64,000 nt of DNA, taken from positions 1 to 64,000 of the IMG/VR virus record IMGVR_UViG_3300042389_000994. The stretch is one strand, 5' to 3'. Source of the DNA: a virus. The translations under genes were made by a program, and so were the position numbers. Below are positions 19,814-54,171 of this stretch, piece after piece. The notes beneath the pieces are model-generated. The model did not search any database, had not been told where the DNA came from, and was given only the letters and a program-made list of their open reading frames with translations. The stretch's first letter is position 1. Every line of letters begins with the position of its first letter.

Positions 19814-19982
19814 CTTCTAAAGAGTTTGAAAGTTGTTTTAATTCTCTCGTAAGTTTTTTTATCACCTTTTTTGACTCCTCTTTATCTTCATCAATAAAGG
19901 CTTCATATAGCTCTGCTAGCAGCCCATGCAGGGAGTTCATTGTGTGATTTACATGAATAACCCTACTGGACTCCTTTTTCAT
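19794..19982 (-). CDS. Small helical hypothetical protein
   Basis: A 62-aa, strongly charged and helical protein (AFIDEDKEESKKVIKKLTRELKQL), probably a coiled coil. Its ATG overlaps the stop of the DnaA-like gene by 4 nt (ATGA), suggesting coupled translation with it. No domain is recognised; it might be an accessory partner of the upstream DNA-binding protein. Confidence 0.55.
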   Translation of the reverse strand: MKKESSRVIHVNHTMNSLHGLLAELYEAFIDEDKEESKKVIKKLTRELKQLSNSLEDEMQDL

Positions 19983-20428
19983 GGATGTAATGGTATAATT
20001 TTTTTTCCAGGCTCAAGAAAACTCATAGCGGCTTTTTCGGATACATATATGCCCTTTGATTTTTGTCCATCAAATATAGTGTAACAAACAACCCATTCCT
20101 TATTAGACATTTCATTGAATGACATAATCTTAGCGGATATCCTTGACATTGCGGCTATAACCCTTTTGTCATACGTCATTATTGACTCAATGGCTCTAAC
20201 CCCATATAGAACCGTGGTATGATCCGAAACAGGGAACACGCGAACTATTTCATGGTAGGTCATACTTGTGAACTTCCTTGCCATATACATAGCCACTTGC
20301 CTTCCCTCAACGTATTTCCTTTTGCTATACCCTTTTTGGGTTAGGGATTCAACTGGGATATCAAGTTCTTGAGCAACGGTGTCAAGAATCATCTCAATCA
20401 TTTCGGTAGATTTCGGTTTTAATTCCAT
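19979..20428 (-). CDS. DnaA domain IV-like DNA-binding protein
   Basis: The start at 20428 (MELKPKSTEMIEMILDTV) is preferred; an upstream ATG at 20518 would overlap the nuclease gene heavily. Residues 10-100 match the DnaA C-terminal domain: AQELDIPVESLTQKGYSKRKYVEGRQVAMYMARKF, then SYHEIVRVF-like TYHEIVRVFPVSDHTTVLYGVRAIE, where DHTTV is the signature helix-turn-helix contact (host DnaA has DHTTVLHA). No AAA+ ATPase domain is present, so it binds DnaA boxes but cannot oligomerise with ATP like host DnaA. The remaining C-terminal ~50 residues are unassigned. It could direct replication initiation, compete with host DnaA, or regulate promoters that carry DnaA boxes (see 33974 and 37166). Confidence 0.8.
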   Translation of the reverse strand: MELKPKSTEMIEMILDTVAQELDIPVESLTQKGYSKRKYVEGRQVAMYMARKFTSMTYHEIVRVFPVSDHTTVLYGVRAIESIMTYDKRVIAAMSRISAKIMSFNEMSNKEWVVCYTIFDGQKSKGIYVSEKAAMSFLEPGKKIIPLHP

Positions 20429-20636
20429 GTTCTTCGAGTTCTTTAATTCTATACTTTTGGATTTCTGATAGTCTGCCTTTTGGCGTTTTGATTTCACTAA
20501 ATAGCACATTGGAGTCACGAGGTATGGCTATGAGATCAGGAATGCCATTCTTGTTGGTCTTCATCAACTTGATGACATAGTATCCCTCTGCCTCTAACTG
20601 CTTAATGCGTTTGGTCTGTATTTGTTGCTCCTTCAT
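20394..20636 (-). CDS. VRR-NUC nuclease
   Basis: An 80-aa minimal VRR-NUC domain of the PD-(D/E)XK superfamily. It has an N-terminal helix with Gln and Glu (RIKQLEAEGYYVIKLMKT), the active-site GIPDLIAI (Asp), then SEIKTPKGRLSEIQ with Glu and Lys, and a final ELEEHGIKTEI. Stand-alone phage VRR-NUC proteins cut branched DNA such as Holliday junctions. It overlaps the SNF2-type helicase stop by 4 nt upstream and the DnaA-like gene by 35 nt downstream, forming a helicase-nuclease-initiator cassette. Confidence 0.85.
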   Translation of the reverse strand: MKEQQIQTKRIKQLEAEGYYVIKLMKTNKNGIPDLIAIPRDSNVLFSEIKTPKGRLSEIQKYRIKELEEHGIKTEIYRND

Positions 20637-24779: not shown

Positions 24780-27218
24780 TTAAAAGGGTGGGTTTTCATT
24801 TATGTCGGACACACTATTGTTGTTAGTGAACATTGGATTGGGTTTAAAAATAATATACCTTCCACCAAGATCTCTACCCTCTTCGGGTGATGTTCCATAT
24901 TTATATACAGAATATGATGCAAGCCATCGGTAAAACCTTGTCCTGCTAATTGTAAGTTTTGCTTTCGGGCCAAAGTCCGGGTTGTCATTGATGAAATCAT
25001 CATACAGCACCTGCTTGTATACCCTTTCCCTTGATGACAGTAATGGATTCTCCGTGTGTCCAGGCAGAACACCACACCACTCAATGAACTCATGGCATGT
25101 TTCAGCAGAAAACTGTCTTGTCTTTAGGTTGACGAACTCACTCTTGACTAGGCCGGTTTCAAGGTAGGACTTTAGACAACGAATCATATAGTTATCAAAG
25201 TTGTTCCATTCCGTTTCACCCCAATCACTAAACATTAACTTACCAAAGTCATCCAATGGAGTGAAATCCTTTCGGTAGTGCTGGAACAATTCAAGCTCCC
25301 ACTTTCTTCTTGCGAATGAATTCCCTGCCCCCTTGATGGCGTAGTTCGTTGTAATTGCAATCTTTGGAGAACGAGAGAAAGGAATCTTGATGGCATCCTT
25401 GTTTTTCTTCTCAAGGGTCAAGCCTTCGGTGATTACCGAAAACAGCCTTTCAAATTCAAAACTTTTTCTCGTGTCATCAAAGCTTATGATTTGAGTGTCG
25501 GCACTAACTAATTGGTAGGCAAATGATTTTTCAAAATTGAATGCCTTACCGTCTATAGTAACTAGTTTCTTCAACTTGCCAACGCCGGTCATAAAGAGTC
25601 CCTTACCGGTCCCTCCCTCTGGGTTATCACTTATCTCTTCATCATTTAAGATAACAGCAGGACAGAACCCAAGGTTCTTGTAGCCGTGCAAGAGAAACCC
25701 AATGGTGGACTCCATTGACTTAACCCTTGACTCATCTTTTCTGCAAATATTTGTTATGAACTTTTGATAATCAGTCGGGACATCCCCATCCACAATGCTT
25801 ATGTTTCTGTCAATAATATGGTCTTTCCAAACATATCCGCCAAGATCAAAATAGTCTATGCACTCAATTGATTCATTCGTCACACGGATGGCGCAATTCC
25901 TGTAGTATAGGTAAGCCTCGCCCTTGGTGTCCTCAACCAAACTTATGTTCACATTAGCCAAGAGCGAAAGGAAGTCCTCCTTGAAATACTTGGTGTTTTC
26001 GGCGAAGTAGTTATACACATCCATATCGCCTACCTCATAAAGGTAATCAAGCACAAAGTCTTTGATTTGCTTTTCTCCACTATGCTCAATCAAGTTGTAT
26101 GTCACTCGCACAAACAGGTAGCTCGTGCTTCCCTCCGGTGAGTACTTGTAGAATCCGTTCTCTTCAAGAAATTTCTTGAATGCAATATGGACTATTTTGA
26201 TTGAGCCATTCTTCGGTGATCTTTCCCAAAACTTAACTACATTTTGTGTCAATGTTTGAAGGACATTGTCAATCGTAGCGGAATCAATATTGTCCCCCTC
26301 TAATTGGTTCCGCAGTTCTTTTTTTGTGACACCTCTCCTATAGGATGCCCGCAGGTCATTCATCCGTTCATCATCCTCGTAATACTTGGTTCCAAAGTTT
26401 TGGCTATGGGAGTATGCACTGTCTACCGTTCTCTTGATTTCTGATTGCTTAAAATCATTTGACGAGTATTGATTTAAAATATGTAAGGCCAAACTTTTAT
26501 TAACCCCGAAATCATTAAATGCAGATGCTAATACATAGGCATTGTGATTCCTCTGCCCCTCTGCCATCGGGTATTTCATTGTCCACCATTTGAGCAGAAT
26601 GTCAACAATTTTGGACTCATCACGAATCGGTATGCTGCTTAAATTGAGTGAACCGGTATGTTGCTCTTTATCTCTGCGATCCATATTCTCCCAAAGCAAT
26701 GACCCCTCATTGATGTAAATGCTTGGGTCATGGGACTCGTAGCAGACACGACTCAGGTTTGATGAGGTCTTATCAAAGTAGGGCGAACTAAAGTGGTTCT
26801 CAAGGCTATTAAAATAAGCCTTGTGGTCGTCTATGTCGGGAGGGATTCGCACCAACACCTTGAGCCCATCACCCGATGGGGATATAAATACCGCATAGAC
26901 ATACTCATCCTTGGCAAGAAAAGACTTGTAGGCAAGCATTGCCTTGTTTGTTTCAAATGCATCAAAGTCCAAGCAAATCAACCCGGAATGCTCTATGATT
27001 GCATTGTCTGCTCGCTTGGAGAAAGTCCCCGAAAAGCAGATGGCCGGCAATTGCTTCTTGAGTTCATTGCGGTCATTCTTTTTATCAACCGACCGAATCT
27101 TGCGGACGAGCTCTGCCGAAGACCCGATCTTAATTCGGTCAAGTATAAACGAGATATCCTTGTGATAGGGCGTATTCGTTTCGTGTATGTTTTTGAAGAT
27201 TGTGACAGTATTTGCCAT
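24780..27218 (-). CDS. Primase-helicase (VirE_N-type primase fused to SF3/D5-like helicase)
   Basis: An 812-aa two-part replication protein. Residues 1-190 resemble the BT4734/VirE_N primase-like domain, with the metal-binding HSGLICLDFDAF and the SPSGDGLKVLVRI nucleotide-binding turn. A PriCT-like helical region follows (residues 200-285). The C-terminal half is an SF3/D5-type ATPase with Walker A NPEGGTGKG (about 538), Walker B IISFDDTRK (about 578) and motif C KIAITTNY (about 625). It would prime and unwind phage DNA at the fork. The duplicated AT-rich element at 27242 lies immediately upstream of its start, and a 9-bp gap separates it from the methyltransferase gene. Confidence 0.85.
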   Translation of the reverse strand: MANTVTIFKNIHETNTPYHKDISFILDRIKIGSSAELVRKIRSVDKKNDRNELKKQLPAICFSGTFSKRADNAIIEHSGLICLDFDAFETNKAMLAYKSFLAKDEYVYAVFISPSGDGLKVLVRIPPDIDDHKAYFNSLENHFSSPYFDKTSSNLSRVCYESHDPSIYINEGSLLWENMDRRDKEQHTGSLNLSSIPIRDESKIVDILLKWWTMKYPMAEGQRNHNAYVLASAFNDFGVNKSLALHILNQYSSNDFKQSEIKRTVDSAYSHSQNFGTKYYEDDERMNDLRASYRRGVTKKELRNQLEGDNIDSATIDNVLQTLTQNVVKFWERSPKNGSIKIVHIAFKKFLEENGFYKYSPEGSTSYLFVRVTYNLIEHSGEKQIKDFVLDYLYEVGDMDVYNYFAENTKYFKEDFLSLLANVNISLVEDTKGEAYLYYRNCAIRVTNESIECIDYFDLGGYVWKDHIIDRNISIVDGDVPTDYQKFITNICRKDESRVKSMESTIGFLLHGYKNLGFCPAVILNDEEISDNPEGGTGKGLFMTGVGKLKKLVTIDGKAFNFEKSFAYQLVSADTQIISFDDTRKSFEFERLFSVITEGLTLEKKNKDAIKIPFSRSPKIAITTNYAIKGAGNSFARRKWELELFQHYRKDFTPLDDFGKLMFSDWGETEWNNFDNYMIRCLKSYLETGLVKSEFVNLKTRQFSAETCHEFIEWCGVLPGHTENPLLSSRERVYKQVLYDDFINDNPDFGPKAKLTISRTRFYRWLASYSVYKYGTSPEEGRDLGGRYIIFKPNPMFTNNNSVSDINENPPF
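24799..24815. repeat. Palindrome copy (one arm complete)
   Basis: TTTATGTC-G-GACACACT keeps the full right arm and the inner half of the left arm. It falls in the extreme 3' end of the primase-helicase gene (SVSDI). Confidence 0.6.
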
Positions 27219-27241: not shown

Positions 27242-27366
27242 TTGTCATCTGATTATCAATACAATGTCAATTATGTCAATTTTTTCTCTATTATATATTG
27301 GGAAGAAAAATAAAAGTAATATATATATAAGAGAAAAACCAAGAAAAAATCCGCATTTCTGACATG
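27242..27366. repeat. Duplicated AT-rich intergenic element, copy 1
   Basis: This 125-bp element begins TTGTCATCTGATTATCA, continues with two ATGTCAAT-type repeats, an AT-rich tract with ATATATATA, and ends ATCCGCATTTCTGACATG. The same elements occur in the same order and orientation at 37613-37740. TGTCA motifs near the left side and TGACA at the right end make it partly inverted-repeat in character. It is non-coding, upstream of the primase-helicase gene. Origin, promoter or protein-binding roles are all possible. Confidence 0.85.
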
Positions 27367-29074: not shown

Positions 29075-29400
29075 AGTTTTTCTTTAAGTTTTGTTATTAA
29101 TTGATTATTCGGTTTTAAATACTTTTCGTAACGTAATAATTTTTTTGAGAGCAATTCACTAGCAACTTCAACGATTCCATCCTCATACCCAAGGCTATGG
29201 AGTAGATCGACCATTGGAATGGAAAGCCTGTCATAGTACTCACCACCGCTATGGCTGGTCTTGTACTCATAACCCAATCCGCTCTTAATGATGTAAACCC
29301 CATAGAACTCAACCGTTGTTTCTAAATCACCGCCACGGATGATTCTTGCTCTTGTACTTGATATGGCTTGTTGCCACAATTCATCTGGTGTGTAAGGCAT
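29044..29400 (-). CDS. Hypothetical early protein (118 aa)
   Basis: The 118-aa product has TPDELWQQAISSTRA, a beta-rich middle VEFYGVYIIKSGLGYEYKT with SGGEYYDRL, and a lysine-rich helical tail. No domain is recognised. It overlaps the annealase gene by 31 nt and the DnaA-like gene upstream by 79 nt, an unusually long overlap; the natural-looking N-terminus (MPYTPDEL) argues that the start is right. Confidence 0.6.
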   Translation of the reverse strand: MPYTPDELWQQAISSTRARIIRGGDLETTVEFYGVYIIKSGLGYEYKTSHSGGEYYDRLSIPMVDLLHSLGYEDGIVEVASELLSKKLLRYEKYLKPNNQLITKLKEKLCEVNKMQKS

Positions 29401-29693
29401 TTCTTATAAATTCTATTTGTGAAATCTTCAATATGCTTCGCTCGTCGCATTTGCATAATCTTGTTGACACCGTGAATGATCGTTGAGTGCGGCGCACGAT
29501 AATCATTGCGAAAAAAGAAGTCGCTAATTTTTGAATTCTTTACACCAAGTTGATACATCAACCAGAAAGAAAAGTGTCTTGCGGTCGCAAGTGGTTGATC
29601 TTTTCTTTTCGTGAAGAAATCTTTGCGAGTATAACCAAGCTCATCGCATACGATGTCAATGACTTGGAATAGGTTTTCATTAGAGATTAGCAT
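29322..29693 (-). CDS. Second DnaA domain IV-like protein
   Basis: A 123-aa protein with DELGYTRKDFFTKRKDQPLATARHFSFWLMYQLG followed by ISDFFFRNDYRAPHSTIIHGVNKI. This is the DnaA domain IV plan, but the signature DHTTV loop is replaced by APHSTI, so DNA specificity may differ from host DnaA and from the first paralogue at 19979. There is no ATPase domain. It is expressed with the recombination genes. A role as initiator accessory, competitor or transcription factor is inference. Confidence 0.7.
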   Translation of the reverse strand: MLISNENLFQVIDIVCDELGYTRKDFFTKRKDQPLATARHFSFWLMYQLGVKNSKISDFFFRNDYRAPHSTIIHGVNKIMQMRRAKHIEDFTNRIYKKCLTHQMNCGNKPYQVQEQESSVAVI

Positions 29694-31641: not shown

Positions 31642-31690
31642 GGTTTTAAATTTAAGTTTAGGTTATGGGGTTGGGGGTTAGTTGATGAAA

Positions 31691-31718
31691 AGAAAAGGGG
31701 GGTGTTCGGACACCCCCC
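31691..31718 (-). terminator. Terminator containing the palindrome core
   Basis: A 9-bp GC stem, GGGGGGTGT with ACACCCCCC (31697-31705 and 31710-31718), closes a 4-nt loop. On the minus strand it is followed by TTTTCTTTTC. It lies just after the 307-aa gene. The loop-proximal bases TGTTCGGACA are a variant of the dispersed palindrome. Confidence 0.7.
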
Positions 31719-31728
31719 GTTGATTGAA

Positions 31729-32663: not shown

Positions 32664-33167
32664 TTAGGGTTTAGGTTTTAGGATTTGGTTTACTTTTTCA
32701 ATGATTAAATCGCCAATGTACTCTCGGCAGATGTCGGCGGTTTGCATTCTATTAGCATCGGCAGCGGCATCGGCAGCGTCAGCGGCATCGGTACCGTCAG
32801 CGGCATGGGCAGCGGCATCGGCAGCGGCACAGGCAGCGGCATAGGCAGAGGCAGAGGCAGCGTTAGCGGAAACGGCAGGGACGGCGGCAGCGTCTAACTC
32901 TTCACGAGTCGCTTTGCCTTCGCCAAAAGCAATTGCAACATCAACCGCCTTGATGGTACGCTCATCTATCAAGTGCCAAACCGTGCTAGCACAATGCCCC
33001 TTGGCAAGAGTCAGCGGTTGCAGTCCGATGTCGCACTTTCGGGCAAGCCACAGAAGCCAATCCCCTCGGTGGCAGGTTGCAACGACTTCTTCTATGGTCT
33101 TGTTTCCGGCCCACTCAACGGCAGGCTCGCAAGCCTCTACGGATTTTAAGTATTGATTTAAGGTCAT
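32664..33167 (-). CDS. Ala-repeat protein related to Imm-5-like phage proteins
   Basis: The start at 33167 (MTLNQYLKSVEACEPAVEW) is preferred to a longer frame that intrudes into the upstream gene. Residues 1-85 include GNKTIEEVVATCHRGDWLLWLA and a LKTVDV-like stretch; residues 90-140 are a run of AYAAA- and ADAA-type helical repeats, matched by a GGC/GCA-rich nucleotide repeat; the end ADICREYIGDLIIEKVNQIL closes it. Proteins of this build resemble the Imm-5-like immunity family spread among phages, but a toxin partner is not seen. The alanine tract is likely to vary in length between strains. Confidence 0.6.
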   Translation of the reverse strand: MTLNQYLKSVEACEPAVEWAGNKTIEEVVATCHRGDWLLWLARKCDIGLQPLTLAKGHCASTVWHLIDERTIKAVDVAIAFGEGKATREELDAAAVPAVSANAASASAYAAACAAADAAAHAADGTDAADAADAAADANRMQTADICREYIGDLIIEKVNQILKPKP

Positions 33168-33180
33168 GGTCTGTTGTATT

Positions 33181-33888
33181 TTAGTGTTTGTTGATTTTAA
33201 TATTTTTGAGAGTCTTAACCCTCCGGCCAGAACACAGATTGCAGGATGCACAGGTTGCCTTGAACCCTGCCTCCTTGGATGCTGGGCATTGGACGGCATC
33301 TGACTCTTGGCCCTTGTCCACCGTAATGAAGGATCGCCATCCCATCGCCTTTGCCTCAAGCTCTTCACCTTGGTTGTGGACCGATGCCATAAAGAAGGGA
33401 GCATAGTCTTGAGCCCAGGTCTTATCCCATTGATGGGTGTAGCCCGTATGCGACCGGCTAACATCCACCATCGCTGATATGAGATCCACCGGCATTAGGC
33501 TTGGCTCGCCATAAGTGCCAAAGCGAACATACCGGCCTCGGCACATATCAATGATGGCCGACCTCTTGGCCTCGTCCAATTGTCCTATGTCGGACACACC
33601 GACAGAGCGGAGTTGTGATAAGAACCCGGAGAACTGCATATACTTGTGGGTGTAGCACTTGCCTGTGCCTGAATTACCGGAGAGAGGGCAGTCAAGACAG
33701 TTGGACTGATCTTGGGCGAAGAAGTCGCCTTGGCTAACCTTGTCTTTGGCCGCCTTGAGTTGGCCAAGGCTGTAGGTGTAGGTTTGGACGATGAGTTGCT
33801 TTGGATCAGCAATCTTCGCGTTGGTGGTTCGTCCCAGTGTGACAACGAAAAGGTTGTCGCCGGAAATGTAACTGACTCGTTTGCTCAT
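33181..33888 (-). CDS. Cysteine-rich conserved phage protein (235 aa)
   Basis: The 235-aa product has a Cys cluster near residues 64-80 (NCLDCPLSGNSGTGKCYTHK), then MCRGRYVRFGTYGEPSLMPVD near 115-135, and a second cluster KATCASCNLCSG near the end. CxxCP plus a following CY motif is typical of a phage protein family (DUF7227-like) that recalls the shape of radical-SAM or replication-associated proteins, but no assured function exists. The clusters suggest metal binding. A promoter and DnaA box lie upstream (33941-33987). Confidence 0.6.
   Translation of the reverse strand: MSKRVSYISGDNLFVVTLGRTTNAKIADPKQLIVQTYTYSLGQLKAAKDKVSQGDFFAQDQSNCLDCPLSGNSGTGKCYTHKYMQFSGFLSQLRSVGVSDIGQLDEAKRSAIIDMCRGRYVRFGTYGEPSLMPVDLISAMVDVSRSHTGYTHQWDKTWAQDYAPFFMASVHNQGEELEAKAMGWRSFITVDKGQESDAVQCPASKEAGFKATCASCNLCSGRRVKTLKNIKINKH
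33584..33600. repeat. Palindrome copy (one arm complete)
   Basis: CCTATGTC-G-GACACACC keeps the right arm fully and the inner five bases of the left arm. It is in the Cys-rich gene, coding GVSDI. Confidence 0.6.
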
Positions 33889-33940
33889 GGTTTAAAGGTT
33901 TAGAGGAATGTTGGTAGTGAACAATTGTGGTTGAATGGTG

Positions 33941-33973
33941 TAAAGATAATAATGGTGTGGCTGTCACTCCAAA
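33941..33973 (-). promoter_or_regulatory. Early promoter with adjacent DnaA box
   Basis: On the minus strand, TATCTTTA (33941-33948) lies 21 bp from a TTTG (33970-33973). This is close to the Bacteroidetes consensus. It would drive the Cys-rich gene (start 33888) and downstream early genes, with a leader of about 50 nt. A perfect DnaA box begins 5 bp upstream of the -33 element. Confidence 0.45.
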
Positions 33974-33991
33974 AAAAGTTATCCACATTTT
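33974..33991 (-). promoter_or_regulatory. 18-bp DnaA-box sequence, copy 1
   Basis: On the minus strand AAAATGTGGATAACTTTT contains TTATCCACA (plus strand 33979-33987), a perfect DnaA box. The same 18 bp, in the opposite orientation, occurs at 37166-37183. Both lie just upstream of early promoters. Confidence 0.75.
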
Positions 33992-34072
33992 AGAGGCCGG
34001 GGCGAAATCCGAATTCGCCTGCATTAACCAGGGGTCCCCACCCCCATGCACTGCCACAGCCGGCCTGTACGG

Positions 34073-34384
34073 TCAAAGGTCTACATCTTTGCCTTCTATT
34101 AGTTTCTTGACGACCGCCTTGATGGCCATACCCTTGAGCATGGCATCGTTGCGGACAGCCGCAAGCAGATACCCGGTCATCATGACCTTCTTCTCATACT
34201 CGCTGATCTCGCCAACCGTTTCTTCGCCAAAGCATTCCGCCTGCATTCTGCGGATACCGGCGAGGCCGGCCTCGTGGATGGTATCATTAGTTTGATATAG
34301 CTTTTCGATTCGTCCTCGTGTGACGGAGTTCCAATCTTCGCCCAATCCGAGGGCTTCGGCAACTGTTTGATCTTTGTCTTGCAT
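34073..34384 (-). CDS. Hypothetical early protein, paralogue of the 30.0-kb protein
   Basis: The 103-aa product is helical, with IEKLYQTNDTIHEAGLAGIRR, then EISEYEKKVMMTGYLLAAVRND and a lysine-rich tail. The K(V/M)MM(T/S)GY motif matches the 107-aa protein at 29836-30159. It lies between the Cys-rich gene and the AAA+ partner gene, in the GC-richer section. No function is known to me. Confidence 0.6.
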   Translation of the reverse strand: MQDKDQTVAEALGLGEDWNSVTRGRIEKLYQTNDTIHEAGLAGIRRMQAECFGEETVGEISEYEKKVMMTGYLLAAVRNDAMLKGMAIKAVVKKLIEGKDVDL

Positions 34385-34400
34385 GGTGTTTTGTGTTTAA

Positions 34401-34429
34401 AAGATGGGGTGTGCCGGACACACACCCCG
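34401..34429 (-). terminator. Hairpin after the ATPase-partner gene, palindrome-derived
   Basis: GGGGTGTG and CACACaCCCC (34406-34413 with 34419-34428, one bulged A) form an eight-pair stem around CCGGA. On the minus strand it is followed by ATCTTTT. It contains the palindrome variant GGTGTGCC-G-GACACACA at 34408-34424. Confidence 0.6.
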
Positions 34430-34432
34430 AAA

Positions 34433-35311
34433 TTACAATGCCCTATGGTGGGCTTGTCCGGAGTTGATGCACTGTTGGATCTTGGCGGCTTGGAGTTTCA
34501 CCCAATCGGCGGTTTCATTGGTGTCCCCGAAGCAATCCATATCGGCGGCCGGTAGATCCACGACTAGGTCTTCGCCGCTGCCTCCAATCCAAGCGAAGAA
34601 CTCTTCGTCAGGCAGCATGGTGTCCCGGTTCTGGGCAGACCCAATTGCGCTCATGTGCTGCTTGCCAAGGCTAGGGAACAGAGCCCCGTACCAAGTGAAC
34701 GATACCCGACGGTGGAAGGATGGGTGGGTGGTCACACCTAGCCGGGGGATATCCAGGCTCTCGCTTGAGTCCTTGACCCGCACACACATAATCGCCCCGC
34801 CGTTGAACACACCGCTCGTCGTGTAGCTGGCTGTGATCTTGAGGTCCGCCGTCGCATCCAGTGCAGCCGCAAGGGCGGCGATGGCCCCGCCATGGTTGAT
34901 GTATGCCTCGGACGATGTGCCGGCGTTGGTGTTGCCCCGGTAGATCAGGTGGACCAAGGGGCGGCGTGGTTCGCCCTCGTACCTGTAGAAGCACCGCTTG
35001 CTGCCTTGGATGTAGGCGACCGGACTGAACTCGTCACCCGTGTAGTGTAGCGAAGGCGACTCTTTGTCCTCTCGCATCGCATCGATGATCAGGTCACGAG
35101 CCCCGGCAATGGCCCTCGCGTTGTAGCCGTCGTATGCTCGCTTGACCATCGTCGGCCAGTCAGGGGCATCCCCGTAGAAGTCAGTGTCTGTGGACTCTAT
35201 CTGCCCGTGGGTCGTGTGGGTCTTGGCTAGCTCTATGGCCTTCTGCACATACCCGTGGACGGTGGTGTCAACAAGAGTCAGGGTGTCAGTGTGGTGGATT
35301 CGGGGTGTCAT
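34433..35311 (-). CDS. AAA+ ATPase partner protein (DUF7192-like)
   Basis: A 292-aa protein with residues such as HGYVQKAIELAKTH near the start, then a beta-rich core (GGAIMCVRVKDS) and an end with MDCFGDTNETADWVKLQ. It lies directly downstream of the MoxR/CobS-type AAA+ gene with a 5-bp gap. MoxR-type ATPases are normally coupled to a VWA-like or CobT-like partner; DUF7192-like proteins fill that place in some phages. I do not see an intact DxSxS metal site. The pair might remodel a protein complex, possibly in metal or cofactor handling, but this is inference. Confidence 0.55.
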   Translation of the reverse strand: MTPRIHHTDTLTLVDTTVHGYVQKAIELAKTHTTHGQIESTDTDFYGDAPDWPTMVKRAYDGYNARAIAGARDLIIDAMREDKESPSLHYTGDEFSPVAYIQGSKRCFYRYEGEPRRPLVHLIYRGNTNAGTSSEAYINHGGAIAALAAALDATADLKITASYTTSGVFNGGAIMCVRVKDSSESLDIPRLGVTTHPSFHRRVSFTWYGALFPSLGKQHMSAIGSAQNRDTMLPDEEFFAWIGGSGEDLVVDLPAADMDCFGDTNETADWVKLQAAKIQQCINSGQAHHRAL

Positions 35312-35316
35312 ATGGC

Positions 35317-36432
35317 TTAGGCGTTGAGGTTGATTCCATCAAGAAGGCGAAGGCGTTGGTCGTCGGACACCCGGTTGAGGATGGCAAAGTTCAGGGCCTC
35401 CTCCAAGGTGTAACCGGATCTCATCAGGGCGTTGGTGCTGATGGCCCGGCGTGGCGATATGATCAGGTCCATCGCAAGGTCGAATGCCCGGCGGCGTAGG
35501 GCTTGGACGGTGCGGGTGGCAGTGGTGTCCCCGGCAACAGCGAGCTCCATGGCCTCATCCACGTTCCACGTAAGGAACTCAAATCGGTCTGTGCTGCTCG
35601 CATCCAAGCGGGTGGCCGCCGTGTAGGTGCGATTGGTGCCGGTCCCGAAGGTGTTTTGGCAGGCAACCGCCCGGAAGTCGGCGTGTCTTTTGACCTTCTC
35701 GCCGTTCGGGAACAGATGCGAAGACCCGGCCAAGACAGTGTTCAGGGCGATGGTCACCTCGGTGTTGGTGCGATCAAACTCATCCAAGCAAAGGATGCCG
35801 CCGTGCTTGTAGGCTGTGTACACAGGGCTCGCGAAGTATTCGCTGCCGATGGTGTAGCCGCGGATATCAGCGGCATTCATCTTTTGGTGGCAGGCAACGA
35901 GTTGGAAGTCCACGCCTAGGGCGTTGGCGAGCTGCTCCGCCCCGTAGGATTTGCCCGAACCGGCCTCGCCTACGAGAGCGGTGTGGCAGTAGTACCCTGC
36001 ACCGTCCCGGCTGGTCGCGATGCGGACCAGGTGCTGAAAGTTGCGGTGTGTCACTCCCACCGCCGTGTGTCCAACACACTGACCGGAGGAGTCGCGTTGG
36101 GCGACCGTCACGGTGATGGCTGCATCCGCCTGGGCCTGGGCATAGGCTTGCTGAAACACCCAATCCAGTTGGTGCTTGATCTCGGCCCGGGCATCGGCGG
36201 CCAAGGCATCTATCATCCCGTCCACGAGCGTGGTGGTGGTCCGGTGTGCCTCGTCGGTGGCGGTTCTTATGGCCTCGCCCTTGATGCGGTCAAGCAGGTC
36301 GTCGCTGACGGCGGCGAGGGCCTGGGCGGTCGCTTGGCCGATGATCGAGTTGGTGTCCACCGGAGCGGCGGGGGTGTAGGTGCGGCGGGAGGCGGCTTGG
36401 GCCGCGATATCCTGCCAATTGGTTTTGAGCAT
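35317..36432 (-). CDS. AAA+ ATPase (MoxR/CobS-like, AAA_5)
   Basis: This 371-aa protein has a helical, alanine-rich N-terminal half and an AAA+ domain in the C-terminal half: Walker A GEAGSGKSYGAEQLA (about residues 152-165), Walker B GGILCLDEFDR (about 213-223), sensor 1 ADFRAVACQNTFG (about 250) and an arginine in DASSTDRFEF. This pattern is the dynein-related AAA_5 subfamily of CobS, MoxR and GvpN. Such ATPases form rings that act with a VWA- or CobT-type partner to open or assemble target proteins. The gene pair lies in an unusually GC-rich section of the early arm, suggesting a later gain. Confidence 0.85.
   Translation of the reverse strand: MLKTNWQDIAAQAASRRTYTPAAPVDTNSIIGQATAQALAAVSDDLLDRIKGEAIRTATDEAHRTTTTLVDGMIDALAADARAEIKHQLDWVFQQAYAQAQADAAITVTVAQRDSSGQCVGHTAVGVTHRNFQHLVRIATSRDGAGYYCHTALVGEAGSGKSYGAEQLANALGVDFQLVACHQKMNAADIRGYTIGSEYFASPVYTAYKHGGILCLDEFDRTNTEVTIALNTVLAGSSHLFPNGEKVKRHADFRAVACQNTFGTGTNRTYTAATRLDASSTDRFEFLTWNVDEAMELAVAGDTTATRTVQALRRRAFDLAMDLIISPRRAISTNALMRSGYTLEEALNFAILNRVSDDQRLRLLDGINLNA
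36064..36080. repeat. Palindrome copy (variant)
   Basis: CGTGTGTC-C-AACACACT is within the AAA+ ATPase gene, where it codes QCVGHT. Both arms are preserved except at their outer or inner base. Confidence 0.6.
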
Positions 36433-36453
36433 GGGGTTGGGGTTTTGGTTAAG

Positions 36454-36469
36454 ACCCCCCGTGGGGGGT
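36454..36469 (-). terminator. GC hairpin between the 196-aa and ATPase genes
   Basis: ACCCCCC and GGGGGGT form a 6-bp stem with a 4-nt loop, in the gap between the two genes. On the minus strand it is followed by CTTAACC with no real T-run, so it may be an attenuator or RNA-processing hairpin and not a strong terminator. Confidence 0.35.
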
Positions 36470-36492
36470 TTCGGCCATTCAGGCCTCGTCAG

Positions 36493-37083
36493 TTAACCTT
36501 CGATGGCGTTGTCCATCGCGGCCATCAGGATGGCGATGGCTGCCTCAAGCTCCTCGCGGGTGTTGTGGGTGTAGGCTTGACCGTTCGCATCCAACCGGAC
36601 GGATACATTGGCGGCGTGGGGGTCACCCAAGATCAGGGGCATCTTGGCGGTAAAGGTGATGTAGGTGGGCACTTTGTCGGTGTCCTGATCGTCGGCGGCG
36701 GCGGGGGCATCTGGGCGCTCGTCAAATTTGCCTTTCAGGAAGTCGTCGTACTTGCGGACCGACCGGGCGATGCCCTCGGCCTCACAGAACTCGTTGAAGG
36801 CTTGCAGTTGGTCCAATGTACCCTTCGCAATCCGGGCGAGTTGGTAGTGCCACTTGGAGTTGATGTTGGCGGGGGTCATGCCCATCGCCATACATACACG
36901 GTCGAAGTTGAGCTCCTCGGTCTTGGCCTCGTCCGGGTTGGCCTTGAGCCACTCTTGGGCCTCGAGCAGGATGGCCCCAAGGTCTAAGCAGGCCTTGAAT
37001 TTGTCCTCGGTGGTGCGGTTAACCTTGGCGACGAGCGTTTGGGCCTTGGAGAGTTGGAGTGCGGTGATGATGGTTTTTTTCAT
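36493..37083 (-). CDS. Hypothetical protein, first gene of early arm
   Basis: The 196-aa product has a helical N-terminal half (ALQLSKAQTLVAKVNRTTEDKFKACLDL, EWLKANPDE), a middle MGMTPANINSKWHYQLARIAKGTLDQLQ, a proline- and alanine-rich linker near residue 125, and a beta-rich C-terminus. The middle block could be a helix-turn-helix, so a DNA-binding or regulatory role is possible but not established. It is the first gene after the divergent region, behind a predicted promoter and DnaA box, and thus likely one of the earliest expressed genes. Confidence 0.6.
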   Translation of the reverse strand: MKKTIITALQLSKAQTLVAKVNRTTEDKFKACLDLGAILLEAQEWLKANPDEAKTEELNFDRVCMAMGMTPANINSKWHYQLARIAKGTLDQLQAFNEFCEAEGIARSVRKYDDFLKGKFDERPDAPAAADDQDTDKVPTYITFTAKMPLILGDPHAANVSVRLDANGQAYTHNTREELEAAIAILMAAMDNAIEG

Positions 37084-37124
37084 GGTTTGGGGGTTAGAAT
37101 GTGGTTAGGTTGTGGTTGATGATG

Positions 37125-37154
37125 CAAAGATGCAGCGGCGGTGGGTGGTTGCAA
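37125..37154 (-). promoter_or_regulatory. Early-arm promoter
   Basis: On the minus strand CATCTTTG (37125-37132, one mismatch to TAnnTTTG) follows TTG (37152-37154) by 19 bp, the normal spacing. It would drive the first leftward gene (start 37083) with a leader of about 35 nt. A DnaA-box sequence begins 11 bp upstream. Confidence 0.5.
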
Positions 37155-37165
37155 CCGCTCCAAGC

Positions 37166-37183
37166 AAAATGTGGATAACTTTT
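37166..37183 (+). promoter_or_regulatory. 18-bp DnaA-box sequence, copy 2
   Basis: AAAATGTGGATAACTTTT on the plus strand carries the perfect box TGTGGATAA (37170-37178). It is identical over 18 bp to the complement of 33974-33991. Both copies are intergenic and adjoin leftward promoters. Confidence 0.75.
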
Positions 37184-37402
37184 GCGGTGTTCGGTTTTGT
37201 GCACAGTGGCTTGGACGGTGTGAGAGCGGTGTGGATGTATTGGATCAGGTGGGGCGGGACGGGGGTTAAGCCTTCGCCCAGGCTGTGGGTGTTGGGTGAA
37301 ACCATCCCCCTCCCGGTCGGTGGGTCGTTCAGGTTGGGGTGGATGTTCGGGGGGGCGGTCCGCCACCGGCCATCGGATCTTGGTCTTGGTCGGTTTTGGC
37401 GG

Positions 37403-37419
37403 AGTGTGCCGGACACACA
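37403..37419. repeat. Palindrome copy in divergent region
   Basis: AGTGTGCC-G-GACACACA is intergenic, with mismatches to the consensus at the inner T of the left arm and the outermost right base. It lies centrally in the 37.1-37.75 kb control region. Confidence 0.65.
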
Positions 37420-37612: not shown

Positions 37613-37740
37613 TTGTCATCTGATTATCAGGCTCATGTCAATTATGACGATTTTTCTTTCTATTATAACGATTCTAAAGAAAGAAAGAATATATAGTATA
37701 TATAGAGTAGAGAGGGGAAAAAATCCGCATTTCTGACATG
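37613..37740. repeat. Duplicated AT-rich intergenic element, copy 2
   Basis: It begins TTGTCATCTGATTATCA like the 27242 copy, has ATGTCAATTATG, ATATATAG tracts and ends ATCCGCATTTCTGACATG, all in the same order and orientation. A further TGACA lies just upstream at 37594. Here it precedes the rightward late arm, whereas copy 1 precedes a leftward gene, so it is not simply a directional promoter. Confidence 0.85.
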
Positions 37741-37958: not shown

Positions 37959-39518
37959 ATGCATAAAAAACTCACAATCGGTGAGGATGCCCGTGCGCAA
38001 CTCACCAAAGGAATTCAGTTGATGGCCGAGGCCGTCAAGAGTACACTGGGGCCGTGCGGTAATACCGTCATTTTAGAGTCCCTTGAACACATTGGTGGGA
38101 TGACCATCACAAAGGATGGGGTGACTGTGGCGAGATCCATCGCATTGGAGGACCCCGTGCAGAACTTGGCGGTTCGGATTATGCGTCAAGCATCGGAGCG
38201 GACGGCAGCAATGGCGGGTGATGGCACAACAACAGCCATCGTCATCGCTGAAGCGCTCATCCTAGCCGGTATGGAGGCGGGCCTGACACTAAGCCAAGCC
38301 AAAGACCTCACCATCCTGTGCGACAAGGCCGTCGGCATGCTCAAGAAGCAGTCTAAAAAGGTGCGCCTGTCGGACCTTGAGTCCATTGCGACCATAAGCG
38401 CGAACAATGACAAGGAGATTGGGGCGATTATCGCAAAGGCATACAAGGACGTGGGAACAGAGGGCATCGTGACGGTTCAAAAGGCGCAGGGGCAGACGAG
38501 CTATGTTGAAACAACAATGGGCATGCGCTTCAAGCGTGGGTACACAAACCGGATGTTCGTCAATGATCAGCGCAAGGACGAGTGTATTTTGGAGGACGCC
38601 TATGTCCTTGTGTCGGACACACCGATCAACAACGTCCTGAACATTGAGAATATCCTCAAACCCGTCATTAATGGAGGCAAACCGCTCGTCATTATTGCGG
38701 ATTGTTCGGATGCGGTGCAGATGACACTGGCAGCCAACGTGGTCAAGAACGGCCTCAAGTTCTGCGTGGTCCAACCGCCATCGTTCGGATGGCGTCGACA
38801 GGAGCAGATGGGTGACTTGGCCTTTATGCTAGGTGGGAAGTACTTCAGTGAGCAGACAGGTGATGACTTGAGCATCGCAACAATCGGTGACCTTGGTGTT
38901 GCCCGGAGAATCGTGGTCGGTAGAGAAGAAACCATCATCGTTCGTCCCGACAGCGACAACGAGAGGTTCAAGACCCGTGTCACTGAATTGTGGGAGCAAC
39001 ACAAGAATACCGAGCGCAAAGACGAGCGCGAGTTTATACTTGAGCGCATCGCTTCGCTGAGTGGCGGCATGTCAGTCATCTATGTCGGGGCGAACACGGA
39101 CGTGGAGCAGAAAGAGTTGTACGATCGGGTGGATGACGCGGTGTGTGCGGTGAGGAGCGCCTTGGAGGACGGGGTGCTGCCGGGTGGTGGTGTGGCTCTA
39201 AAGCACATCGCTGAAACGATGGAGTTGCCCGATGGCGTGCTGCAGGAGTCGTTGAATGTGTTCCGAAAAGCCATTATGGCCCCATTGCGACAAATTGTAG
39301 GCAATTCGGGGAGAGATACCGCCGAGATAGAACTCAATATTGAGAATTGTGGCCCCAACTTTGGGTTTGATGTCAAGAATGGGGAATACGGCAATATGAT
39401 GACAATGGGCATCATTGACCCCGCCAAAGTGACGAAGAACGCCCTCGTCAGCGCGACGAGTGTAGCGGTTACCCTTTTAGGAACAAATGCAATTGTAACC
39501 AATGAGAGCAGTAAATAA
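37959..39518 (+). CDS. groEL: GroEL-like chaperonin
   Basis: A 519-aa group I chaperonin. It has TKGIQLMAEAVKSTLGPCGNTV (equatorial, residues 17-38), GGMTITKDGVTVARSI, the ATPase signature AMAGDGTTTAIV (about residues 84-95), and LEDGVLPGGGVAL near residue 405. Host GroEL is about 540-548 aa, so the protein is slightly short and lacks the Gly-Met-rich C-terminal tail. It would fold phage capsid or tail proteins with its own cochaperonin, encoded next to it with a 17-nt overlap. Base composition is visibly GC-richer than the structural genes, suggesting a transferred gene. The palindrome at 38607 lies within it. Confidence 0.92.
   Translation: MHKKLTIGEDARAQLTKGIQLMAEAVKSTLGPCGNTVILESLEHIGGMTITKDGVTVARSIALEDPVQNLAVRIMRQASERTAAMAGDGTTTAIVIAEALILAGMEAGLTLSQAKDLTILCDKAVGMLKKQSKKVRLSDLESIATISANNDKEIGAIIAKAYKDVGTEGIVTVQKAQGQTSYVETTMGMRFKRGYTNRMFVNDQRKDECILEDAYVLVSDTPINNVLNIENILKPVINGGKPLVIIADCSDAVQMTLAANVVKNGLKFCVVQPPSFGWRRQEQMGDLAFMLGGKYFSEQTGDDLSIATIGDLGVARRIVVGREETIIVRPDSDNERFKTRVTELWEQHKNTERKDEREFILERIASLSGGMSVIYVGANTDVEQKELYDRVDDAVCAVRSALEDGVLPGGGVALKHIAETMELPDGVLQESLNVFRKAIMAPLRQIVGNSGRDTAEIELNIENCGPNFGFDVKNGEYGNMMTMGIIDPAKVTKNALVSATSVAVTLLGTNAIVTNESSK
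38607..38623. repeat. Palindrome copy in groEL
   Basis: CTTGTGTC-G-GACACACC has the complete core GTGTCGGACAC and the full right arm. It encodes LVSDTP in the chaperonin's apical domain. Confidence 0.75.
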
Positions 39519-41941: not shown

Positions 41942-44900
41942 ATGGCATTAGAGCAAATTTCAAGTTATGCATTCTTCCCAGCGATAAATGCTGGGGGCCA
42001 GCAGTATTCTGCGCAGTTGACAATTCCCGGACGATGGAACATTGGTCAAATTCGTAGGATTGTCAACTCTACTCGAAACAAGTTGATGTACAGCGATGAG
42101 CATGAGAAGCTTATCGGCACGATTTCATTTAGCGGGTATAGCGCAACGATCCCCGCTGGTTTACCGACGACATTAATACAAAAGGCCGGTGGTGTGACGA
42201 CGTTTAACCTGTTGATGGATACGACCTATATGGGGGCAAACGATACGCTTGAAATATTGGTCGAGAAGAAGGAGCAGATTGTTCGCCCATTTGACTTTGG
42301 AACGGATGCGATTGAGCGTATCAGGGTGTCCGACCCCAAGTCAATGATTGACGCTGACTTTGAGTACGGCTTGCAGCCTACCAAATGGGCTTCCTATGGA
42401 TTGAACCGGTACTTCCCGTCGATTCTTGAACTTCAAAGTAATGACCTTATTGTATCTACCATTACTTCCGATGGGACAACTACATCAAGTACGAACTCAT
42501 TAATTACGGTTACTACATTAGGGCCGCATGGAATTGCAGCTGTCAGAACCCCTATTCATGTTGCTGGAACAAGTCAAGCGATTGCCCTTGGTGTAGGCGG
42601 AGCAGACGGCGGGTTTTTAGTTGAAACGGTTTCTAGTACAACTCAGTTTACTTATAGGGCTAAAACGACCATAACTTCTGGGTCAATTTTTGCCGACAAT
42701 ATTGTACTTCGTCGTTGTATTTTTTCATCAAATTCGGAAATTCCAATTCAGCAGATTACGACCGCAAGTCATCTTGGTGGTGATCCATTAACGGTTTCAT
42801 CTGCCATTGCAGCAACACTTACCAATAGCACTTCATCTGGAACGACTATAACGGTTACTAGTACAGCAAATCTTGCGGCTGGTATGCAAATTTTAGTAAC
42901 AGTCGGTACTGGAACCCTTGCACCGGGAGGTGGTGTCATAACGGCAATTTTAACTGCAACAACCTTTTCTGTTGCTATTGCTCCTTCTACCGCTTTATCG
43001 GCCGCTACGGTGGTGGCTCTAATACCGCACAATCTTGTTCCAGGCACACCTTTGCTTGTTCGCGTATTGAACGGAACTAATACGGGTTTGGCCAATGGGT
43101 CTTTCTTTGTCAACAGTGTTCCTGGGCCTGGTCAGTTTACATTTAGACCACGCCAAGACCAAACAACCAACACCATAAACTTTACTGGCTCCACAACAAC
43201 TATTACGGCCAACTCAGACGGATTAGCCGCTCCAAGACCATGGGATGGTGGCGTTCAGATTTATACAGCGAGTGCTTCTCATGGAGCGTCTATTGTTCGT
43301 GCTACAAAAAAGTACAACCGATATCAGTCTGGTAAAGGATACCTATGGTCATCCGGTGTGTTATTCCGCCCGAACTATGACATTCGTAGCATCACATCTA
43401 CTGGAAACAGTCCCGGCTCAACCGTTACCGTTACTACCGACGGGGTTCCGCACGGACTGCAAACCGGCGCAACTGTTACTATTGCCGGGGTAAGCACGGC
43501 GGGATACAATGGTTCTTTTGTCGTAAATGGCATCACAAGTGCTTATGCGTTTACATACTCAAACCTTGTAGCGCTTGGAGGGTCCCCCGGCGTAACCGTT
43601 CCGGGCATAGACGCTAAAGCCATTGTCACGGCATGGTCCGGGGCCGTTGTGAGGGCTGGTCCTTTTGATGACCAAAACGGGATGTTCTTTGAATACGATG
43701 GAGCAACATTCTGGGCGGTTCGGCGAAGTGCGGTTTTTCAGCTTGCCGGAACTTTAGCTATTAACACTGGAAGGACAACAGTTACTGGAACGGATACTAG
43801 GTTTCTCCAACAGGTAAGGGTTGGTGATAAAATCGCGCTTAAAGGCATGACCTATTTGGTGGCATCAATCGGAAGTGACACTAGCATGACCATTTCTCCA
43901 GACTGGAGGCCAACGGCAAATGCGAGCGGAATTAAGGGAAGTATTATCCGTGAAACCCGAATCGCTCAGTCAAACTGGAACATAGATACTTGTGATGGTA
44001 GCGGCGGGGTAAATAACCCAAGCGGATTTTTGCTTGACTTGAACACCATGCAAATGGTCGGTATTCAGTACACATGGTATGGAGCCGGATTTATTGACTG
44101 GATGATTCGCGGCGCTGACGGAAACTGGATAATGGTTCATCGACTCAAGAACAACAACGTGAACTACGAGGCCCACATGAGGACTGGTAACTTGCCCGTT
44201 CGCTACTCAGTGGAAAACGAAGGGGCTTATACTTTCTTGACCGCATCGCTTGCGGCTGGCACCACTACCTCAATGAGCGTTGCAAGCACGGCGGATTTCC
44301 CAAACGCCGGAACTCTTTTGATTGACCAAGAAATCATTAGCTATAGTGGAAAAACAGCAACGACTTTTACTACGCTGTCTAGAGCGGCAAACTTGGTTAA
44401 GTTTCAAGGAGGGGTTTCAAGGACGTTTACTGGCTCAGTTGATAGCATCCACAACACGCCAACCGCATCTGCGACAAATGGACCGGGCGTTGTGCTTATT
44501 CGCAACACTTGTAGCCCATCGCTCGTTCACTGGGGTTCGGCTTTGGTTATGGACGGAGGGTTTGACTCTGACCGTGGCTATATTTTTAATACTCAAAGAA
44601 CCATTGATATACTAGGCGCTGCAACATCAACAAACAAAAAGCAGGCTTTTGCCTTGAGGTTAGCCCCATCCGTTTCTGCGGGTATTTTGGGGGTTTTAGG
44701 CTCTAGGGACCTTATCAATAGGGCTCAATTCCTTCTTGACACCATTGGAGTAGATATTGATAATGCCTCGAACGCAAGGGCCATTGTCGTTGAGGGCATT
44801 GTGAACCCAACAAATTTATCATTTTTACCAGTCACTCTAACAGGGGGTAGTTCTTCTGGAACAACCATAACGGTTGCATCAACCGCATCCCTTTCCGTAG

Positions 44901-45403
44901 GTATGACAGTTGTAGTGACGACTGGGACTGGGTTGTTTGCCCCTAGTGGAAGCGTCGTTCTTACCATTCCAAGTGCAACGACTTTCACTGTTGGTGCTGC
45001 TCCTTCTACCGCTTTATCTGGGGCTACAATAACTGCAACGGGAGGGTGGATTGATGTAAACTCTGTTTCCCAAGGGTCGCAGCCATCGTTTACGCAAGTA
45101 TCAACAGCATTTGTTGTTGGAAGCACGGGTAACTCTCAAAATAATAGTGGATGTACCGGTGGAGAAACAATCTTTTCCTTTGCGCTTCCCGTACCTGCTG
45201 GAGCCACAGCAGCGTCTAGTGGAGCCGTTAATGATAGACTTGGTCTAACTACCTTGAAAGAATTAACGAATGCCCCAATCGGGGGGGATGGCGTTTATCC
45301 GGACGGCCCAGAGGTACTAGTCATTCAACTTTCTATGGTAGGGACTGCTACAGGAACAGCTAGTGCCACAGTTCTTTGCCGCTGGTCTGAGGCTCAAGCG
45401 TAA
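41942..45403 (+). CDS. Large fibre- or spike-like structural protein
   Basis: A 1153-aa protein rich in Thr, Ser, Gly and beta sequence. Residues 1-130 (QISSYAFFPAINAGGQQYSAQLTI) look like an attachment domain. Internal beta repeats such as SSGTTITVTSTANL...GM, then PSTALSAATV, occur near residues 299-360 and again near 971-1030; at the DNA level GCTCCTTCTACCGCTTTATC is shared by both. Another repeat region (TVTTDGVPHGLQTGATVTIAGV) is near 500. Such repeat-built proteins are typical fibre shafts, and in crAss-like phages these form capsid or tail fibres. The endolysin ATG overlaps its stop. Confidence 0.65.
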   Translation: MALEQISSYAFFPAINAGGQQYSAQLTIPGRWNIGQIRRIVNSTRNKLMYSDEHEKLIGTISFSGYSATIPAGLPTTLIQKAGGVTTFNLLMDTTYMGANDTLEILVEKKEQIVRPFDFGTDAIERIRVSDPKSMIDADFEYGLQPTKWASYGLNRYFPSILELQSNDLIVSTITSDGTTTSSTNSLITVTTLGPHGIAAVRTPIHVAGTSQAIALGVGGADGGFLVETVSSTTQFTYRAKTTITSGSIFADNIVLRRCIFSSNSEIPIQQITTASHLGGDPLTVSSAIAATLTNSTSSGTTITVTSTANLAAGMQILVTVGTGTLAPGGGVITAILTATTFSVAIAPSTALSAATVVALIPHNLVPGTPLLVRVLNGTNTGLANGSFFVNSVPGPGQFTFRPRQDQTTNTINFTGSTTTITANSDGLAAPRPWDGGVQIYTASASHGASIVRATKKYNRYQSGKGYLWSSGVLFRPNYDIRSITSTGNSPGSTVTVTTDGVPHGLQTGATVTIAGVSTAGYNGSFVVNGITSAYAFTYSNLVALGGSPGVTVPGIDAKAIVTAWSGAVVRAGPFDDQNGMFFEYDGATFWAVRRSAVFQLAGTLAINTGRTTVTGTDTRFLQQVRVGDKIALKGMTYLVASIGSDTSMTISPDWRPTANASGIKGSIIRETRIAQSNWNIDTCDGSGGVNNPSGFLLDLNTMQMVGIQYTWYGAGFIDWMIRGADGNWIMVHRLKNNNVNYEAHMRTGNLPVRYSVENEGAYTFLTASLAAGTTTSMSVASTADFPNAGTLLIDQEIISYSGKTATTFTTLSRAANLVKFQGGVSRTFTGSVDSIHNTPTASATNGPGVVLIRNTCSPSLVHWGSALVMDGGFDSDRGYIFNTQRTIDILGAATSTNKKQAFALRLAPSVSAGILGVLGSRDLINRAQFLLDTIGVDIDNASNARAIVVEGIVNPTNLSFLPVTLTGGSSSGTTITVASTASLSVGMTVVVTTGTGLFAPSGSVVLTIPSATTFTVGAAPSTALSGATITATGGWIDVNSVSQGSQPSFTQVSTAFVVGSTGNSQNNSGCTGGETIFSFALPVPAGATAASSGAVNDRLGLTTLKELTNAPIGGDGVYPDGPEVLVIQLSMVGTATGTASATVLCRWSEAQA

Positions 45404-45807
45404 TGCGAGAGATTAAGAACCTCGTCTGCCATTGCACGGCTACCGCTAAGAATACTCCCGTCGATGCTATAAAAAAGTATTGGCGGGAGAATCTTGGCTG
45501 GAAGGCAGTTGGCTATCACCGAATAATCAAATCAAATGGAGAAATTATTCAACTCGCTTCGGACGAAGCTATCACAAATGGCGTGGCAGGTCACAATAGA
45601 AATAGCCTGCACGTTTGTTATATTGGAGGAAAGACTGCTGACGATAGAACGCCGGCTCAGAAAACGGCTATGGAGAAAGTCCTAAGGGAATGGCTATCCA
45701 AGTACCCGAAGGCCAGAATCATTGGGCATCGCGATTTCCCCGGCGTCAAGAAAGCCTGTCCTCAATTTAGTGCAGAAAAAGAATATGGCTACCTCTATAC
45801 ATCTTAA
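45403..45807 (+). CDS. Endolysin, N-acetylmuramoyl-L-alanine amidase
   Basis: A 134-aa Amidase_2 domain resembling T7 lysozyme. It has VCHCTATAKNTPVDA with the first zinc His (about residue 10), GYHRIIKSNGEII with a further catalytic His and Tyr, HNRNSLHVCYIG near 63-75, and a C-terminal IIGHRDFPGVKKACPQF carrying the last His and Cys ligands. It cleaves the amide bond between MurNAc and L-alanine in peptidoglycan. Without a signal peptide it needs a holin. It overlaps the spanin candidate by 23 nt. Confidence 0.88.
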   Translation: MREIKNLVCHCTATAKNTPVDAIKKYWRENLGWKAVGYHRIIKSNGEIIQLASDEAITNGVAGHNRNSLHVCYIGGKTADDRTPAQKTAMEKVLREWLSKYPKARIIGHRDFPGVKKACPQFSAEKEYGYLYTS

Positions 45808-46210
45808 ACTCCTCACGGTCCTGTTCTTGTTTGTGGGTTGCAGCAAGAAAACCGTCACTCAGATTGAGTATCGGACAAGGGTTGACATTCAGCGCGACAC
45901 CGTGCAGATGCCGGTCATTGTGGAAACAGCCATCCCATCGCCATGCGATACCAACGGGATACTCAAGGACTTTAAGTTTGAAACCCAAGCCGGCCCAACA
46001 AAGGTTAAGTTGGCGGTTGAAAAGAATCGCATAATCGTCAAACTAAAAACGGACACGATAAGGATTGGCTATAGGAGTGTGTCCGACACACTGTTTGTTT
46101 ATAAGGACAAGATCACAACCAAAAAGGTCACGCCAAGGTGGGCATGGCAGCTGCTGATTGCCAATATCGTTGTAGCCATCGGGATTTTACTATATTTGCG
46201 TTTGAAATGA
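45785..46210 (+). CDS. Probable unimolecular spanin (u-spanin)
   Basis: The start at 45785 gives 141 residues: MATSIHLKLLTVLFLFVGC is a lipoprotein signal with a lipobox ending FVGC. A beta-rich periplasmic segment follows (residues 20-110), and a C-terminal membrane helix WAWQLLIANIVVAIGILLYL with a short basic tail ends the protein. A lipoprotein N-terminus in the outer membrane plus a C-terminal inner-membrane helix is the exact topology of phage T1 gp11, a single-protein spanin that fuses both membranes in the last step of lysis. Its overlap with the endolysin gene supports this. The palindrome at 46076 lies in it. Confidence 0.7.
   Translation: MATSIHLKLLTVLFLFVGCSKKTVTQIEYRTRVDIQRDTVQMPVIVETAIPSPCDTNGILKDFKFETQAGPTKVKLAVEKNRIIVKLKTDTIRIGYRSVSDTLFVYKDKITTKKVTPRWAWQLLIANIVVAIGILLYLRLK
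46076..46092. repeat. 17-bp palindrome, perfect arms, in spanin gene
   Basis: AGTGTGTC-C-GACACACT has perfect inverted arms and codes SVSDTL in the periplasmic segment of the u-spanin candidate. Confidence 0.8.
46170..46198 (+). promoter_or_regulatory. Promoter TTG-N18-TATATTTG
   Basis: TTG (46170-46172) and TATATTTG (46191-46198) are 18 bp apart, near-consensus spacing. The -7 box ends 8 nt before the ATG at 46207, so the mRNA leader would be only about 4 nt. It would start the head-gene transcript. Confidence 0.6.
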
Positions 46211-46455: not shown

Positions 46456-46565
46456 AAAACAAGCCAGCACCCAAAAAGAAGATGTCCGCCAAAGAAATGG
46501 AGGCCATGAAAAAATCCAAAATGTCCACCATGAAGTATGGCGGCAAAATGAAAAAGCCATGCTAA
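46452..46565 (+). CDS. 37-aa Lys/Met-rich micropeptide
   Basis: Between the two neighbours a short frame, ATG 46452 to TAA 46565, encodes MKNKPAPKKKMSAKEMEAM followed by KKSKMSTMKYGGKMKKPC. It overlaps the upstream stop (ATGA) and the downstream start (7 nt). Short Lys-, Met- and Tyr-Gly-Gly-rich peptides of this sort recur in phage structural regions and may condense DNA. The coupling and composition are the support. Confidence 0.5.
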   Translation: MKNKPAPKKKMSAKEMEAMKKSKMSTMKYGGKMKKPC

Positions 46566-54161: not shown

Positions 54162-54171
54162 AAACTAAAAC

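Follow-up and report, generated by a model that had tools for sequence, protein, structure and literature searches.

The locus examined here raises the question of which protein reads two identical DnaA-box sequences that lie, one on each strand, beside leftward promoters of a phage that also encodes two DnaA-like proteins, and what such a reading would do. The window, by which we mean the whole stretch of DNA analysed, comprises positions 1 to 64,000 of a virus record of 66,598 bases. This record is probably a near-complete genome, complete or circularly permuted, because its bases 1-42 recur at 66557-66598 with 97.6% identity over 42 bases. It encodes a primase-like protein, a Sak-type annealing protein, an exonuclease, a helicase, a DNA methylase and GroEL, and the primase defines a group of relatives of at least 205 IMG/VR contigs, with MW202828.1 among the named records. 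The relatives and the promoter type point to Bacteroidota as hosts. In agreement with a preliminary description of this DNA, the 18-mer AAAATGTGGATAACTTTT occurs once per strand and each copy holds a perfect DnaA box (Table 1). It is the sole exact inverted 18-mer pair in the record, which contains no further copy, and none of 100 dinucleotide shuffles reached an equal number of near matches. The window contains only two perfect TTATCCACA boxes, one in each 18-mer.

Table 1. Positions of the DnaA boxes, promoter elements, repeat elements and genes discussed in the text
Feature	Position	Strand	Remarks
P1, DnaA domain IV protein	19979..20518	-	DHTTV loop kept; Bac_DnaA_C (PF08299), E=1.8e-17
Primase-like protein	24780..27218	-	BT4734-like N, PriCT_1; marker defining the phage group
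AT-rich element, copy 1	27242..27366		TTGACAT/ATGTCAA repeats, 129 bp, upstream of primase
P2, DnaA domain IV protein	29322..29693	-	insertion, and PHSTI replacing DHTTV; Bac_DnaA_C (PF08299), E=1.8e-9
First gene behind box 1 promoter	33181..33888	-	235 aa, PHROG 2554
-7-like TATCTTTA	33941..33948	-	25 bp past end of TGTGGATAACTTTT
-33-like TTTG	33970..33973	-	immediately after box 1
Box 1, AAAATGTGGATAACTTTT	33974..33991	-	perfect DnaA box; orientation as in phased promoters of other phages
AAA+ ATPase	35317..36432	-	MoxR/CobS-like, PHROG 249
First gene of leftward operon behind box 2	36493..37083	-	196 aa
-7-like CATCTTTG	37125..37132	-	33 bp from box 2
Box 2, same 18-mer	37166..37183	+	reversed relative to adjacent leftward promoter
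AT-rich element, copy 2	37613..37740		77% identical, divergent region before groEL operon
GroEL, phage-encoded	37959-39518		behind long divergent intergenic region

Read toward its promoter, box 1 runs TGTGGATAACTTTT-TTTGG..., and the promoter itself takes the form TTTG-N21-TATCTTTA (33973-33941). A perfect TAnnTTTG is present at neither window promoter (TATCTTTA, CATCTTTG); the box 1 element ends in A, a -7 variant also used in the regulon of phage G491 described below. Box 1 has the orientation and the 25-bp gap of the phased promoters found in other viruses, together with TTTG at -33 and an imperfect -7 element, and a phased composite of this kind arose in 0 of 2000 Markov-1 shuffles of the window. 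With TTTG and TATCTTTA at this gap, and no shuffle to equal them, box 1 is by its geometry a member of the phased DnaA-box promoter class. Box 2 has the opposite orientation and a gap of 33 bp, and so departs from the class in both respects; it probably represents a different sort of DnaA site, serving repression or looping with box 1, or else a relic. A family search with the 196-aa product encoded behind it found none. The earlier statement that both boxes stand beside leftward promoters is correct as to the presence of the promoters, and needs revision in its details: TTTG follows box 1 directly, the -7 elements are imperfect and the boxes are oppositely oriented. Its reading of the boxes as promoter control is supported for box 1, which matches a virus-wide architecture; box 2 has the orientation that comes without phasing. 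Within the phage group, the exact 18-mer is kept in the closest relative among the matches listed (G001) and in a fragment (G495), and a further relative (G011) has it with one mismatch; most relatives lack the box. The idea that the 18-mers are conserved across the group was rejected, since only these three carry the extended box. A conserved TACCTTTG is about 92 bp away from the box in G001 and G495, an unphased gap, and the architecture is therefore not strictly kept even among close relatives.

The same design recurs elsewhere in IMG/VR. The exact 18-mer occurs in at least 118 stretches, and alignment of their flanks revealed a large excess of TAnnTTTR at 24/25 and 34/35 bp past the box over other distances. 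A second scan used TGTGGATAACTTTT-N12-42-TAnnTTTG, with the reversed box and a dinucleotide-identical scrambled box (TGGTGATAACTTTT) carrying the same AT arm as controls; redundancy was removed, as were TAnnTTTG matches inside second DnaA boxes (GGATAACTTTG), which had been false matches in the first histogram. With bins fixed beforehand on the 18-mer set, 20 of 55 members of an independent nonredundant set among the matches listed fell at 24, 25, 34 or 35 bp, against 7.1 expected (p=9e-6). In the pooled set, again among the matches listed, 33 of 66 were phased against 10.6 expected over five bins, of which the bin at 36 was chosen afterwards, and TTG occupied the -33 place in 24 of these 33 as against 9 of the 33 unphased matches. 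The reversed box was not phased among the matches listed (8 of 54 in the phased bins, 8.7 expected), and the scrambled box was at least 13 times rarer than the real one in IMG/VR, with 9 matches against at least 120. The two distance peaks are 10-11 bp apart, which is one helical turn. All IMG/VR and genome totals given here are lower bounds, and many of the records are fragments.

In some phages the composite is repeated to form an apparent regulon. Phages of the type of G470 and G463 have six or seven DnaA-box promoters per cluster: G470 (69 kb; region 44500-54500) carries six composites within 6.2 kb on one strand, with gaps of 25, 25, 34, 25, 35 and 24, and a similar cluster occurs in G463 (65 kb; region 4500-13500). 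The larger G491 (136 kb) has five composites, all with a gap of 34. Backwards controls for these regulon phages gave 0 matches. In most box promoters of the G470 region the -7 element is followed by an ATG at 19-20 nt. Some of these promoters contain a pair of boxes spaced 11 bp, an arrangement that unites the 24/25 and 34-36 distance classes. That the composite might be an ordinary host promoter type was considered and rejected, as it is rare in 395 Bacteroidota genomes (at least 27 matches, about three of them at phased gaps among the matches listed). A composite with a gap of 35/36 is present upstream of nrdA in four Emticicia-like genomes, and a box precedes 8 of 30 Spirosomataceae nrdA genes; nrdAB of E. 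coli is a classical DnaA-regulated promoter (PMC8203912). We note that the Emticicia-like nrdA loci (L462 2930-3416, L417, L549, L552, L562, L565) have, besides the composite, another DnaA box about 127 bp downstream.

These data suggest a box-promoter design common to many viruses of Bacteroidota-type bacteria, the hosts of these other metagenomic phages being assigned from promoter type alone, in which early genes would be timed by the host initiator. A Bac_DnaA_C (PF08299) domain is encoded in just 2 of 40 box-promoter virus records, many of them fragments and several longer than 60 kb, and host DnaA is therefore the simplest binder. It is probable, on this comparative evidence, that host DnaA regulates early phage promoters by phased contact from upstream. 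Box 1 would thus control a composite phage promoter, in which a DnaA box of one orientation lies 24/25 bp, or one helical turn further at 34-36 bp, before the -7 element. Such fixed spacing would set the bound protein on a constant face of the DNA beside the -33 element, within touch of host RNA polymerase, and in the phages that bear the architecture host DnaA would most likely activate early genes or switch them according to growth state. The box 1 promoter of the window would drive the leftward genes from 33888. We infer the binding of DnaA, activation as the direction of its effect, and its timing; the window promoters appear to be early from the content of the genes behind them.

In bacteria, DnaA is known to regulate transcription from nrdAB and further promoters (PMC8203912). 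The phage composite resembles these in having one or a few high-affinity DnaA boxes close by, and is shared with Emticicia-like nrdA; it differs in serving phage genes through a Bacteroidota-type -33/-7 promoter, with strict orientation and helical phase, and in recurring as a regulon within one phage. DnaA-stimulated transcription has also been reported in lambda (Szalewska-Palasz and others, as cited in PMC3985674 and PMC8203912), where, as we propose here, phage transcription responds to host DnaA. The DnaA-like boxes described in lambda are located downstream of pO, with an effect that benefits the origin, whereas in the present design the box immediately precedes -33 and is found at many promoters. 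When named phages were searched by blastn with one consensus composite, no match was convincing, and a literature search found no description of such phage promoters, an absence that is no proof of novelty.

Several other explanations of the boxes have to be weighed against contact by a phased host activator. Host DnaA might bind and yet repress, the box beside -33 blocking polymerase, or might be titrated from the host origin by decoy boxes. DnaA does repress several promoters (PMC8203912), and it could be titrated where a phage has as many as seven box promoters. Titration, however, would require no fixed orientation or helical phase, yet both are seen, and a box of single orientation a few bp before -33 is more usual in contact activation. 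We regard repression or titration as unlikely, although the sequence is compatible with repression. AT arms flank -33 in many AT-rich promoters, by our inference, and the boxes could in principle reflect chance or a generic AT-rich upstream element in which TTATCCACA is incidental. The rarity of the scrambled box, which has identical dinucleotides and the same AT arm, the orientation-specific phasing in the independent data and the failure of window shuffles to reproduce the composite together make this reading highly improbable. Another possibility is a promoter switch in which the phage's own DnaA-like proteins, P1 and P2, occupy the 18-mers in competition with host DnaA, as had been suggested in the preliminary description. 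The existence of two stand-alone DnaA domain IV-like proteins, one with DHTTV and one with a changed loop, is borne out by Pfam and by loop alignment: PF08299 scores are 63.6 bits for P1 and 37.9 bits for P2, both above the Pfam curated cut-off of 31.5. P1 also matches solved DnaA structures including 1J1V, while the matches of P2 are weak. At 179 and 123 aa, both consist of the C-terminal domain alone and lack the AAA+ ATPase domain of the full DnaA initiator. The DHTTV recognition loop is the reader of the DnaA box, and its retention in P1 is in favour of a switch. So is the precedent of GafA, an activator of the RcGTA gene transfer agent in which a DnaA domain IV-like DNA-binding domain serves transcription control in a phage-like element; in Hyphomicrobiales this domain is a small separate gene (PMC9638019). 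GafA is alphaproteobacterial and has a sigma-like C-terminal part, in contrast to P1 and P2, which are short proteins of a Bacteroidota-type phage group.

The distribution of proteins and boxes weighs against such a switch. PF08299 is encoded in 39 of 40 related records, many with two copies, but TTATCCACA is at background in the group (23 matches in 40 records, in which the backwards control gave 19) and lies mostly within genes; conversely, 38 of 40 box-promoter records show no PF08299 protein. Genes of the P2 type, with 61 copies in primase loci, are placed upstream of the primase at about 2.5 kb and have an insertion before the recognition helix, mostly xHSSI-like loops and no loop aspartate, while genes of the P1 type lie about 5-6 kb downstream (56 copies in primase loci) and mostly have DH[TA]T[IV]. 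Since both types keep fixed places around the primase, the gene pair appears, from these alignments, to be old, conserved and syntenic in a large phage group. Caudoviricetes sp. isolate ctfjg026 (MW202828.1) is a related phage that shares the primase and keeps the two DnaA domain IV genes at syntenic positions, but has no 18-mer at up to three mismatches, and its single TTATCCACA lies elsewhere. A tie between P1 or P2 and the DnaA boxes is thus not supported by these comparisons, and their competition for the 18-mers is quite unlikely. Also proposed earlier, and in our view very unlikely, is that the boxes mark an origin from which the phage replicates in dependence on DnaA. Origins of plasmids and chromosomes do generally include DnaA boxes, and box 2 is in a divergent region that also contains an AT-rich stretch. 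There is, however, no cluster: the two perfect boxes in 64 kb are single and 3.2 kb apart. GC skew, to which the preliminary description had looked for the origin, switches sign near 31-32 kb and 18.5 kb, away from the boxes, although this is confounded by gene direction. A conserved iteron element elsewhere is moreover the better origin candidate.

This AT-rich element is present in two copies, upstream of the primase and before the groEL operon. The duplicated element is conserved in G001 and G495, and it is kept before the primase throughout the phage group. In the primase-upstream regions of the group, CGACAT occurs 154 times against 11.1 expected and TGACAT 75 times against 19.7 expected, adjoining TATATA tracts; short direct repeats and an AT-rich tract near a replication gene, kept in relatives, are what is found at iteron-type origins. 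The duplicated element is accordingly best described as a candidate, either for the origin, where it is preferable to the boxes, or for a primase control element. Read on the opposite strand the repeat is TTATGTCGA, which has its TTAT half in common with the DnaA box, and we hypothesise that P1 or P2 reads a repeat of this type. Covariation of iteron variants with the P1/P2 recognition loops was looked for in the group and was not evident. It is possible, though we put it forward tentatively, that in many Bacteroidota phages host DnaA activates an entire early regulon by phased contact and in this way ties infection to host replication state, and that in the window's lineage the two DnaA domain IV paralogues read changed TTATGTCGA-like iterons, with the TTAT half kept, at the phage's own replication control element.

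If host DnaA does act in this phased manner, box orientation and helical distance would constitute a promoter grammar with which to find phages whose early genes heed the host replication initiator, and would give a sequence-level account of how such phages could sense the readiness of the host to replicate. It would also provide clear test promoters, including nrdA, for Bacteroidota, where DnaA as a transcription factor has been little studied. The iteron element and the two DnaA-like paralogues would form a testable pair for target change by a DNA-reading domain.

The region around the boxes has further features. From 32700 to 37350 it is mostly 50-65% G+C, compared with 44% genome-wide, with positive GC skew against gene direction, and is possibly acquired DNA. 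The 18-mers were considered as ends of a GC-rich mobile cassette (34-37.3 kb, about 60% G+C), an explanation rejected as no transposase was found among the enclosed genes and a promoter suits box 1 better. A tandem repeat array with spacing of 12 and 18 bases is present at 32737-32904, within gene 32664-33464, which overlaps gene 33181-33888 in a different frame. Intergenic hairpins such as GGGGGGTGTTCGGACACCCCCC and GTGTGCCGGACACAC recur in the window (31690-31728, 34406-34424 and 37401-37419) and at several sites in G001, and in both phages are terminator-like.
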